Shown: positions 10,804 to 14,286 of the stretch, piece by piece | How positions within the stretch are numbered: the stretch's first letter is position 1 | How the letters are laid out: every line of letters starts with the position of its first letter | Assembly (NCBI GenBank): GCA_014534345.1 | Contig: JACVRR010000006.1 | Span: forward strand, 1 to 44,848 | Direction of reading: 5' to 3' | From: Thermoleophilia bacterium | Lineage (GTDB): Bacteria; Actinomycetota; Thermoleophilia; Gaiellales; Gaiellaceae | Length of the DNA stretch: 44,848 nucleotides | Made by a program: the position numbers and the translations under genes | The notes under the pieces: generated by a model | Told to the model about the DNA's origin: nothing | Seen by the model: the letters and a program-made list of their open reading frames with translations, nothing else | The model's database searches: none

Positions 10804-11025
10804 CGTTGCCATCCCAGGCGCCGGCCGTTGTCCACACAGGCACGCAGGCTGACGCGGGAATCCGTCTTTTGCAGCAGCTTTCTACAGGGTTCGCGAGCGT
10901 GCCGTAAGCATCCCGTAAAGATTTCGTCCGCGGGGGAGCCCCGCTGGTACGGTCGCCGCCGCACAGAGACGTCAGCTCGTTCGATCCGAGCCGGTCACCC
11001 GTGGGCTCGTGTCGGACCCGCTGCC

Positions 11026-11031
11026 AGGAGG
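11026..11031 (+). promoter_or_regulatory. Ribosome binding site of the Rpf-like gene
   Basis: A perfect AGGAGG lies ten bases before the ATG at 11042 and decides between that ATG and an earlier one at 11009. The 11042 start also puts the signal peptide at residue 1. Confidence 0.8.
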
Positions 11032-11041
11032 TTCTCACCGG

Positions 11042-11716
11042 ATGCAGAGACTGTCGACCCTCGTCGCCGTTCTCGCGCTCTCGGCCGCAGCCGCCCCGGC
11101 GTTCCTGCTGGCCGCGGTCGCGGTCGAGGACGCGACGCCGGCGGCGGCCGAGACCGAGCCGACCCCGACGACCGCCGCCGTGACGGCAACCGCGACGGCC
11201 GCCTTTGCCGAGCGCGAGCGGCGCGTGAGGCCGAAGCCGCCGCGGCGGCGCCAGGCGAACAAGCTGCCCCGTGGCAGCCGGTACCTCGTCGCCCACATCC
11301 GCCGGCACCAGCGCGCCACCTGGAACTGGCAGCGCGTGATGGCCACGCGACTGACGCCGTCGGCCTTCGCCGTGCAGACTGCGCGGAGCAAGTCGTACCG
11401 CCGCTGGGTCCTCCGGTTGTGGAAGCGGCGCCATGCCCAGGCGCGCCGCCAGGCGCAGAACCCGCCGAACGAGTGGGCGTGGCGTTGCATCCAGCGGTAC
11501 GAAGGTGCCTGGAACGACCCGAACCCGCCCTACTGGGGCGGCCTGCAGATGGATTGGTCCTTCATGCGCGCGTACGGCGGGCACCTGCTGCGGCGGAAGG
11601 GCACCGCCGACCGCTGGACGCCGCTCGAGCAGATGTGGGTGGCCGAGCGCGCGCTTCGCGCGGGCCGGGGGTTCTACCCGTGGCCGAACACCGCGCGGCG
11701 CTGCGGCCTCTTGTAG
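11042..11716 (+). CDS. Secreted Rpf-like/transglycosylase-like protein
   Basis: The 224-residue product starts with a signal peptide (hydrophobic to ~residue 27), then a low-complexity Thr/Ala/Pro and Arg-rich linker, and ends with a resuscitation-promoting-factor-like fold at ~145-224. There the catalytic Glu is E154 in CIQRYEGAWND, followed by YWGGLQMDWSFMRAYGG and AERALRAG; C149 and C221 match the conserved Rpf disulfide. Rpf enzymes cleave peptidoglycan and help dormant actinobacteria regrow. It is exported and probably acts at the wall. A strong terminator follows directly, so it is monocistronic. The upstream 238 bp contain no gene. Confidence 0.88.
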   Translation: MQRLSTLVAVLALSAAAAPAFLLAAVAVEDATPAAAETEPTPTTAAVTATATAAFAERERRVRPKPPRRRQANKLPRGSRYLVAHIRRHQRATWNWQRVMATRLTPSAFAVQTARSKSYRRWVLRLWKRRHAQARRQAQNPPNEWAWRCIQRYEGAWNDPNPPYWGGLQMDWSFMRAYGGHLLRRKGTADRWTPLEQMWVAERALRAGRGFYPWPNTARRCGLL

Positions 11717-11744
11717 CGTGGGGGAACGAACGGTTCCCCCCACG
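11717..11744 (+). terminator. Terminator after the Rpf-like gene
   Basis: Starting at the base after the stop codon, CGTGGGGGAAC pairs with GTTCCCCC(C)ACG around a four-base loop (one bulged C). A pyrimidine stretch ending in TTTT follows about 15 nt later. It is a strong intrinsic-type terminator hairpin. Confidence 0.75.
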
Positions 11745-11795
11745 GGCCCCCCTCCCTTTTGCACCTCCTGGTGACGGACGCCTGCGTGCGCTCTC

Positions 11796-12171
11796 GCGGA
11801 GGCAAGCTCCGCTTCGCGCAAGGGACCGCCTCGCCGTTGCAGGGCACTCTTTGCCTTGCAGGCCTGCGCGGCGGGGGCCGCGCGCAGGCCAGGAACTCCT
11901 ACGAAGACTCCTGACGCCTCGCGCGCGGCCGGAATGGGGGCTCGTCCCTCGCCAGCATTCCGGCCGGCCGATGGCCTTGGGAAGGACCTCGTGGCTCTGA
12001 GCCACGAACCGCCGCTCACCAGCCACCGCCGTCCGCACTGTCAGGCGTCGCGGTCCTCAGCCGATCGATCGCCGCGTGATCCGTCCTCGCGCCCGCGAGA
12101 CAGCGCTCTCGCGGGCGCGACCTCTTGGCCGCGCGATTCTCGTCGCCGCGAAGCGCGGAGCGCTTCGCGGC
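11796..12171. repeat. Array of six hairpins in gene-free DNA
   Basis: This stretch has no convincing gene but contains six separate inverted repeats with perfect stems: 6 bp at 11796-11812, 10 bp at 11861-11890, 10 bp at 11927-11965, 8 bp at 11989-12007, 14 bp at 12087-12120 (loop CAGCGC) and 12 bp at 12045+100 to 12171 (12145-12171, loop GGA). Stem sequences differ from each other, so this is not a simple repeat family. It could be a structured RNA, a series of terminators, or protein-bound DNA. Function unknown. Confidence 0.8.
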
Positions 12172-12184
12172 TAGGCTTACGGTC
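12172..12184 (+). promoter_or_regulatory. Leaderless -10 (TAGGCT) before the 33-residue ORF
   Basis: TAGGCT at 12172-12177 stands seven bases before the GTG at 12185, the same layout as other putative leaderless genes here. It begins immediately after the last hairpin of the array. Confidence 0.45.
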
Positions 12185-12286
12185 GTGGGACGCGGATCTC
12201 GGTCGATCAGGCGCTGGCGGAACGACCGTCAGCGCAAGAAGAAGGAACGCCAGAAGCGGCGCGCCGCGGCGGCGCCCCGCCGGTAG
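12185..12286 (+). CDS. Tiny highly basic protein (33 residues)
   Basis: GTG-initiated ORF of 34 codons. The product starts MGRGSRSIRRWRNDRQRKKK and continues with an Arg/Lys-rich then Ala-rich tail; more than half the residues are basic. Such proteins may bind RNA, like small ribosomal proteins, but I cannot assign a family. Support comes from the TAGGCT element at leaderless spacing and from composition unlike random GC-rich frames. The ligase gene starts 26 bp downstream. It could be spurious. Confidence 0.5.
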   Translation: MGRGSRSIRRWRNDRQRKKKERQKRRAAAAPRR

Positions 12287-12312: not shown

Positions 12313-13371
12313 GTGAACCTGCCCGTCGGCCCTCCGCTGCCGCCCATGCTGGCTCGGCTCGCCCGCGAGCTGCCGACCGGTGACTTCTTCTTCGAGCCCA
12401 AGTGGGACGGCTTCCGCTGCCTGGCCTTCCGGGCCGGCGACGAGGTCGATCTCCGCTCACGGCACGACCGGCCGCTCGCGCGGTACTTCCCGGAGGTCGT
12501 CGAGGCGCTGCGGCGGCTGCCCGCCGCCCGCTTCGCGCTCGACGGCGAACTGGTCGTGCTCCGCAGGAGCGGCTTCGACTTTCCGTCGCTGATGGCGCGC
12601 CTCCACCCGGCGCCGACGCGGGTCGAGCGGCTCCGCCGCGAGACACCGGCCCTGCTGATCGCGTTCGACCTGCTCTCGCTCGGTGACGACGACCTCCGCG
12701 CGCGGCCCTTCGCCGAGCGGCGGCGCCTGCTCGAGGAGGTCGTCGCCCCGGACGCAAGCGGGGTCTTCCTCACGCCGCTGACGGCCGACCCGTCGATCGC
12801 GGCGACCTGGCTCGCCCGGTTCGCGGGGGCGGGGATCGACGGCGTCGTCGCGAAGGGGCGTGCCGCCGAGTACGTCCCCGGCTCGCGCACGATGGTCAAG
12901 GTGAAGCCGGAGCGGACGGCGGACTGCGTCGTCGCCGGCTTCCGCTGGCTCGTCCACCGCGCCCTTCCGAGCTCGCTCCTCCTGGGGCTGTACGACGAGG
13001 CGCGCTTGCACCACGTGGGCGTCGTCTCCTCGTTCACGGGACACCAGCGCGAGCGGCTGCTCGAGGTGCTGCGCCCGCTCGTCGTCGAGCTGGCGGGGCA
13101 TCCGTGGGAGCACGGTTTCCTCGTGGAGGGCGGCGCAACGGGCAGGCTCCTCGGGGCCGCCGGGCGCTGGACGCCCGACATGGTGCGGGACTGGGTGCCC
13201 GTCGCCCCCCGGCTCGTCTGCGAGGTCGCGTACGACCAGCTCGACGGTCGCCGCTTTCGTCACCCGGCGCGCTTTCGCCGCTGGCGTCCCGACCGCGAGC
13301 CCGCTTCCTGCGGCTTCGACCAGCTCCAGGTCGCCCCCGCGGACATCGGCCAGCTACTCGCCGCCGCGTGA
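12313..13371 (+). CDS. ATP-dependent DNA ligase (LigD ligase domain, stand-alone)
   Basis: The 352-residue enzyme has nucleotidyltransferase motif I FEPKWDGFR with K30 as the adenylated lysine, motif III (LLIAFDLLSL), motif IV DGVVAK, motif V MVKVKPERTADCVV, and an OB-fold C-terminal part. It seals nicks, probably in non-homologous end joining, since the LigD polymerase homolog follows 81 bp downstream. In mycobacteria these domains sit in one LigD polypeptide; here they are separate genes and no 3'-phosphoesterase domain or Ku gene is in view. GTG start; a weak TACGAC lies six bases upstream. Confidence 0.93.
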   Translation: MNLPVGPPLPPMLARLARELPTGDFFFEPKWDGFRCLAFRAGDEVDLRSRHDRPLARYFPEVVEALRRLPAARFALDGELVVLRRSGFDFPSLMARLHPAPTRVERLRRETPALLIAFDLLSLGDDDLRARPFAERRRLLEEVVAPDASGVFLTPLTADPSIAATWLARFAGAGIDGVVAKGRAAEYVPGSRTMVKVKPERTADCVVAGFRWLVHRALPSSLLLGLYDEARLHHVGVVSSFTGHQRERLLEVLRPLVVELAGHPWEHGFLVEGGATGRLLGAAGRWTPDMVRDWVPVAPRLVCEVAYDQLDGRRFRHPARFRRWRPDREPASCGFDQLQVAPADIGQLLAAA

Positions 13372-13452
13372 AGAGGCCGCCCGTCTCGTTCGGCCCTCGG
13401 ACGCCCGCTTCGCTCGCCGGCCGCACCGCCGCGGCTGGCGAGCGGCTGCGCC

Positions 13453-14286
13453 TTGACCCTCGTACGCGTCTCCAACGCCGGCAAGCCCCTCTGGCGGGAC
13501 GGGTTCACGAAGGGCGAGGCGGTCGCGTACTACGAGCGAGTCGCGCCCGTCCTGCTTCCGCATCTGGCCGGACGCCCGGTGACGCTGCGCCGGTTCCCGG
13601 ACGGCGTCGACGGTCTCAACTGGTACCAGTTCCAGTGGCCCCGTGGGCATCCGGACTGGCTACGGAGCGTCGTGCTGGGGCGCTTCGCCTACTGTCTGGT
13701 CGGGGACGTTCCGTCGCTTCTGTGGGCGGCCAACCTGGCGGCCGTCGAGCTGCATCCGCTGCTCGCGCCGGCCGAGCGGCCGGACGAGCCGTCGTTCGTC
13801 GTGCTCGATCTCGACCCGGGGCCGCCGGCGGGGCTGGCCGAGTGTCGGCGCGCGGCGCTGGCGGCCCGAGACGTCCTACGGAAGACGGGGCTGCAGTGCT
13901 TCGCGAAGACGTCGGGCTCGCTCGGCCTGCACCTCTACGTGCCGCTCGCGCCGGGGCACCGCTTCGCCGCGACGAAGGCGTTCGCGCGCACGCTCGTGGA
14001 GCGGCTGGCGTCCGAGCTGCCCGAGCTCGTCGTCGCGCGAACCGCCGTCGAGGGACGGCGCGGCAGGGTGCTCGTCGACTGGGTCCAGAACTCGCGCCGG
14101 CGGTCGACCGTCGCGGCGTACTCGCTGCGGGCCGGGCCGACGCCCACCGTCTCGACGCCGGTGACGTGGGACGAGGTCGAGGGTGGAGCGTCGCTCGTTT
14201 TCGGCCCAGCGGAGGTGCTCGCCCGGGTCGAACGGGTCGGCGACCTCTTCGCACCCGTGCTGCGAGACGACCAGCGGCTCCGCTAG
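13453..14286 (+). CDS. LigD-type polymerase/primase domain protein
   Basis: The 277-residue protein matches the archaeo-eukaryotic-primase-like polymerase domain of LigD: VRVSNAGKPLW start, two catalytic Asp in FVVLDLDPGP (D119, D121), KTSGSLGLHLYVPL with K152 and H160, and the third Asp in VLVDWVQN (D209). It adds nucleotides or ribonucleotides at broken ends before ligation. A TTG start is chosen because no ATG/GTG lies near the beginning of homology. It follows the ligase gene in the same direction and probably shares its transcript. An inverted repeat (GCTCGCCGGC...GCTGGCGAGC) lies just before the start. Confidence 0.92.
   Translation: MTLVRVSNAGKPLWRDGFTKGEAVAYYERVAPVLLPHLAGRPVTLRRFPDGVDGLNWYQFQWPRGHPDWLRSVVLGRFAYCLVGDVPSLLWAANLAAVELHPLLAPAERPDEPSFVVLDLDPGPPAGLAECRRAALAARDVLRKTGLQCFAKTSGSLGLHLYVPLAPGHRFAATKAFARTLVERLASELPELVVARTAVEGRRGRVLVDWVQNSRRRSTVAAYSLRAGPTPTVSTPVTWDEVEGGASLVFGPAEVLARVERVGDLFAPVLRDDQRLR

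Follow-up and report, generated by a model that had tools for sequence, protein, structure and literature searches.

The window analyzed here is a stretch of 44,848 nt; its positions 1-359 belong to a 16S rRNA gene truncated at the contig start. Between a weakly Rpf-like gene, which has a relative in 66 of the 103 genomes of the family, and a DNA ligase gene, the window contains a block of hairpins (11716-12177) followed by a micro-ORF (Table 1). The LigD-type ligase and primase-polymerase domains encoded downstream are split over two adjacent genes (12313-14286). A first-pass annotation of this DNA had reported the hairpins, a 33-codon ORF and an unusual packing of stems. The coordinates agree with the sequence, and the packing is real and far above chance: the segment 11717-12184 holds six perfect stems that are 8 bp or longer (loops of 3-12 nt), compared to 0.2 in dinucleotide shuffles, with none of 300 shuffles equaling the count, and three stems of at least 10 bp where 0.01 are expected from such shuffles. 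Its hairpin density is the highest among same-size intervals of the 44.8-kb window, and this density comparison with shuffles ruled out chance hairpins. The hairpin H1, described below, was not one of the two that the first-pass annotation had singled out.

Table 1. Features of the hairpin block and its neighborhood in the window.
Feature	Position	Strand	Remarks
Secreted, weakly transglycosylase/Rpf-like gene	11009-11716	+	PF06737 at E 0.054, below cut-off; repeat starts directly after its stop
Module T	11716-11759	+	Terminator-like hairpin GTGGGGGAACGAACGGTTCCCCCCAC (11717-11744), then tract GGGCCCCCCTCCCTTTT; directly 3' of the stop codon
Module A	11761-11971	+	Module of the dispersed repeat; holds H1-H3
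H1	11787-11820	+	TGCGC-TCTC-GCGGAG-GCAAG-CTCCGC-TTC-GCGCA; conserved internal loop flanked by two covarying helices
H2	11861-11890	+	Hairpin GGCCTGCGCGGCGGGGGCCGCGCGCAGGCC; kept in paralogues, same core in relative G001
H3	11926-11966	+	Hairpin CGGCCGGAATG...CATTCCGGCCG; G001 version CGGGCGGAA...TTCCGCCCG
Center hairpin	11989-12007	+	TCGTGGCTC-T-GAGCCACGA; copies C145 and C68 have it at this same place, between A and B
Module B remnant	12023-12056	+	Covers model positions 80-113 of 118, the others being deleted from the window copy; weak alone (E 0.006)
Module D	12060-12177	+	Two hairpins, 12087-12120 (14-bp perfect stem, loop 6) and 12145-12171 (12-bp stem, loop 3); contigs C129 and C154 have further copies, whose stem changes are compensated
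-10-like box of the micro-ORF	12172-12177	+	TAGGCT, 7 nt before GTG; relatives have TAGAGT, TATAGAGT
Conserved basic microprotein, 33 aa	12185-12286	+	MGRGSRSIRRWRNDRQRKKKERQKRRAAAAPRR; GTG to TAG; part of the locus, not of the repeat
ATP-dependent DNA ligase, LigD-type ligase domain	12313-13371	+	Downstream context
LigD primase-polymerase domain	13453-14286		Downstream context

Comparison of the block with the rest of its assembly revealed that 11716-12177, instead of being a single RNA gene, belongs to a dispersed non-coding repeat, of which it forms a mosaic copy. Many diverged copies lie at unrelated sites of the source genome, which is 69% complete. BLAST recovered further copies of 11715-11992 at 86-93% identity, the left and right halves of a full copy had 29 and 41 own-genome matches, respectively, and a covariance model of the core (11780-11892) gave 25 own-genome matches at E 0.005 or better. 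Profiles of five modules hit the fetched genome pieces 51 (T), 25 (A), 21 (B), 31 (E) and three (D) times. Five full copies (C147, C135, C40, C68 and C145; about 527 bp in the first three) share the module order T-A-B-E, and T appears again at their far end in inverse orientation, since module E contains a reversed T and, by eye, an H1-like hairpin; the two ends of the element are thus inverted hairpin repeats. The remaining copies are left-only, right-only or, in C120, tandem. Several copies lie at contig ends (C54, C65, C90 and C169), so the true copy number is probably higher. Module D ends at a -10-like box and GTG start both in the window and in C129. Two full or near-full copies have a tRNA-Ser gene about 5 nt upstream (L049:904-992 and L054:1197-1287), and a tRNA-Ser-like gene in G016 is followed by T alone (L260).

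Analysis of base pairing revealed compensatory changes in H1, both among paralogous copies and across genera, as the first-pass annotation had expected of a structured RNA. In 19 left-half copies, the helix GC-NNNN-GCAAG-NNNN-GC occurs with four or more distinct stems, most of which are complementary. The paralogous copies contained 34 double-changed cells, compared to 15.3 ± 2.7 in shuffles (a count reached by none of 500), and sliding the partners destroyed pairing in their alignment; the core alone likewise showed compensatory changes. Because kinship of copies alone can exceed shuffles, cross-genus evidence weighs more. An alignment of 18 H1 sequences from the source genome and nine relatives (A5) gave 41 double-changed cells compared to 14.4 ± 2.4, with far lower values for slid-partner versions, these pair counts being inflated by preselection of the rows for H1 shape. 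Nine of the 11 pairs changed on both sides, and the loop strands TCNC and TYC, with their flanking C and G, were unchanged and 17 nt apart in every row, giving the consensus [4-5 bp]-TCNC-[6-7 bp]-loop-[6-7 bp]-TYC-[4-5 bp]. The compensatory changes in paralogues and across genera indicate that at least H1 is under structural constraint. Helix mismatches (13 G-U and 20 A-C) showed no strand bias and thus favor neither strand, so that both RNA and single-stranded DNA are possible levels of action. Consistent pairing of the spacer and tail around H1 was also considered, and was present in single sequences only (e.g. L207).

These results bear on the proposal that the interval is a structured RNA or a protein-organized DNA site. 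Structural constraint holds for H1; a single ncRNA gene between the rpf and ligase genes does not fit a block that is a dispersed mosaic and is absent from the orthologous interval in two relatives. Hairpin loss, which the same annotation had named as counting against its RNA, is also seen, in that modules are lost and reshuffled between copies. Rfam 15, scanned over the whole window and by E-value over the interval, had no family that matched the repeat, and 6S RNA, for which the genome was searched, was rejected as its identity.

The front end of the repeat, a two-hairpin unit of T and H1, recurs in about ten genera of the family, and T with the same layout is likewise found in about 10. Exact hairpin patterns of the own-genome copies occurred in none of 102 family genomes and none of 398 class genomes, as for a genus-private repeat. 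This reading was overturned by matches to the covariance model in relatives, weak ones to the core in 17 other genomes, indicating that exact sequence patterns were too strict. The common layout in relatives is T with a CCCCCTYCTT-like tract and then H1, which begins about 63 nt from the start of T. Among the 22 units measured in other genomes, this distance was always 58-70 nt, and in eight of them T starts 3-6 nt past the stop of a long coding frame. Since the H1 sequences were partly shape-selected, loci fetched solely by BLAST to T provided an independent check. Six of nine such loci had H1 just downstream at 33-46 bits (L032, L034, L040, L042, L043 and L046, with L032 being close to the G016 members of the model), L038 had a weak H1 match downstream of T, and L037 is cut by a contig end. 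In G001, from a second genus, the layout extends to T-H1-H2-H3 with compensated changes in H1 and H3, and in G016 the right end of the elements bears T-H1 in inverse orientation. Taken by itself, T resembles the ordinary terminators of the family.

Most of the genomes compared are draft assemblies. The 400 kb of G017 searched contained no R2 covariance match above 22.5 bits, the viral contigs searched gave no matches, and reference genomes gave three scattered single matches in Proteobacteria-type records, which we read as chance. A further hairpin resembling H1 was observed at L272, L273, L204-L206, L208, L210, L211 and L242; one strand reads CCTTTCGC-GGA-GCCCGGC-TCC-GCCGGGC-GGGA-GCGAAAGG, and the conserved flanks end in GGCGGCCAGGGACGTGAG. 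This hairpin apparently lies just upstream of GTG starts in several genomes, had no Rfam match in the loci tested, and is perhaps a conserved leader or another repeat family.

Empty sites and direct repeats both point to insertion. In G025 and G126, the upstream gene and the micro-ORF are separated by 12 and 14 nt, respectively, without hairpins, compared to 468 nt here; the upstream gene common to all three ends FYPWPNTAR-C-LI, and G025 also shares the gene preceding it. The block was therefore, as judged from these flanks, most probably inserted between the two flanking genes in the window. Elsewhere, T-H1 units lie between long direct repeats. In G019 (L198), a 127-bp unit stands between two exact 65-bp copies of the front of a tRNA-Pro gene, the gene downstream of the unit being intact; in G094 (L043), 70-bp repeats with at most 10 mismatches span the front of a metH-like gene, which reads as a methionine-synthase gene; and in G088 (L040), the 45-bp repeats are of tRNA-like sequence. 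Their scores of 130, 105 and 55, respectively, compare to a maximum of 36 in 758 comparisons of left and right flanks from different loci. A 22-bp repeat in G026, with a score of 29, falls inside this null distribution. Such 45-70 bp repeats of the target appear to be the mark of insertion, and diverged direct repeats are hard to explain as assembly duplicates. Around the own-genome copies, including the window copy, neither direct repeats nor short target duplications were found, and these copies may be old.

The micro-ORF, whose GTG starts 13 nt past the last stem, appears from its conservation to be a genuine gene for a basic microprotein, independent of the repeat. Homologues of about 30-50 amino acids with a conserved N-terminal part (consensus MGRGSRPI-RWRNDRQRKKKER-KR) occur once per genome in 23 of about 103 family genomes and in two genomes of another family (loci L002-L016 and L159-L161). 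Most have a TAGAGT-like box a few nucleotides before the start codon, which suggests leaderless transcription. Since the DNA upstream of most homologues differs from the hairpin repeat, the pairing of the two in the window looks accidental, and the earlier idea that the ORF product binds the RNA is unsupported, with the ORF conserved in about 25 genomes behind mostly other upstream DNA. For this unannotated microprotein family, searches of Pfam and NCBIfam at E up to 10 gave nothing relevant, and a PDB search gave no match. Ribosomal protein bTHX was considered and set aside; no curated profile matched, and the MGRGDR..RW start is a mere resemblance. From its charge, our guess would be a nucleic-acid-binding or ribosome-associated protein. 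In several relatives the micro-ORF is followed by a gene that reads as VOC/glyoxalase-like, and in G025 (L161:1-180) the DNA just past it reads as resembling the end of an integrase-type insertion sequence.

Taken together, we consider it quite probable that a mobile, non-coding, dispersed repeat gave rise to the block as one of its mosaic copies; the best reading of this repeat is a mobile, structured, terminator-bearing element, MITE/BIME-like in kind. We propose that an enzyme acting in trans would recognize the ends in their folded form, either single-stranded DNA or RNA, and would insert the unit while duplicating a long and variable stretch of the target. Since T can terminate transcription, the host would tolerate insertion beside a stop codon. 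In the window, the inserted block would also provide the DNA immediately upstream of the -10-like box of the micro-ORF. No transposase or reverse transcriptase was linked to the repeat among the genes and loci examined. The source genome has three Y1_Tnp (RAYT-like) genes, none of which is flanked by T, A, B or E. One of them (L127:1256-2030) lies between GGTGTCAGACACC palindromes unrelated to the repeat, a separate REP-like candidate. A more far-reaching version strikes us as quite improbable. In it, the T-H1 units would be a family-wide class of tiny, structured, non-autonomous elements that a host-encoded enzyme moves by way of a folded intermediate, either RNA or single-stranded DNA, producing target duplications of long and variable extent; they would be the bacterial equivalent of SINEs and would place terminators at gene ends.

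Other explanations differ in what maintains or moves the repeat. T-H1 could chiefly be a functional RNA, such as a small RNA or a signal for 3'-end processing or termination, which host selection keeps at gene ends and which is copied through duplication of a useful regulatory part rather than selfish spread. The covariation of helices around a conserved internal loop, the position of T 3-6 nt past stop codons in several units and the nearly constant spacing from T to H1 would all be expected of such an RNA, and we regard this as a tenable, though less probable, explanation: a strong terminator-like hairpin precedes H1, three units stand between duplicated gene fronts, no Rfam family matches, and the helix mismatches, 13 G-U versus 20 A-C, lack the G-U strand bias that would indicate selection on RNA from this strand. 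That the block is merely a cluster of tandem terminators or chance palindromes in a 74% G+C genome, meaning nothing further, is hardly credible, even though hairpin clusters after stop codons have been proposed as terminators (PMC8355165), given the density far above shuffles, the same-sequence modules at many unrelated sites and the specific internal loop kept across genera.

Two further explanations accept mobility and assign the repeat to a known mover. In the first, the repeat would be a REP/BIME family mobilized by a RAYT, or a terminal inverted repeat (TIR) family mobilized by a RAYT relative that is associated with TIRs. The repeat is palindromic, intergenic and mosaic with complementary mutations, as REPs are (PMC2817692), long TIRs flank some RAYT genes and form repeat families (PMC3733652), and the genome has its three Y1_Tnp genes. 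However, these genes are not flanked by the repeat, one having its own unrelated GGTGTCAGACACC palindrome, the units are far longer than the 20-40 bp of REPs, and T does not fit the published TIR motif GGGGWSAS, making this assignment unlikely. In the second, the repeat would be a non-autonomous offshoot of an IS1634/IS1549-type DDE insertion sequence. Target duplications made by such elements are long and variable, which would account for direct repeats of 45-70 bp, and possibly for the 22-bp one, as direct repeats of 8-514 bp have been reported at the insertion sites of IS1549 and IS1634 (PMC2266710); we nevertheless consider this origin doubtful, since no insertion sequence with T-H1 ends was seen among the loci examined.

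The preferred reading, a mobile structured repeat, has several implications. If the repeat is both mobile and terminating, it would be an example, from an uncultured lineage, of a selfish hairpin that seeds gene ends with terminators, and it may account for assembly breaks at such sites in the lineage. Handles in the search for the enzyme are the layout of two hairpins, the conserved internal loop and the length of the target duplications. We did not find the repeat described in the open-access papers searched, and the family is apparently undescribed, being new in sequence and layout and of a kind already known.

Among known systems, MITEs share with the repeat a short, non-coding, dispersed nature, several copies, empty sites in relatives and terminal inverted repeats (T at both ends of full copies, T-H1 in G016). 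In contrast to MITEs, the ends of the repeat carry hairpins with a conserved internal loop, its target duplications, where seen, are 45-70 bp long, and no parent transposon was present among the loci examined. REP/BIME and RAYT-linked TIR repeats are similarly palindromic, mosaic and intergenic, often at gene 3' ends, with compensated stems (PMC2817692, PMC3733652), whereas the unit here consists of two hairpins over about 130 bp, within elements of up to about 527 bp, differs in sequence, has no recognized short GTAG/CGTC-tagged palindrome and, for the three Y1_Tnp genes, does not enclose a RAYT gene between two inverse copies. IS1549 and IS1634 resemble the T-H1 units in their long direct repeats of variable length (PMC2266710), but no transposase is encoded in the repeat, nor were IS1634 ends recognized. 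Finally, T resembles intrinsic terminators in its G+C-rich hairpin and pyrimidine tract, often just past stop codons, and differs from them in traveling with a second conserved hairpin, H1, at a nearly fixed distance.
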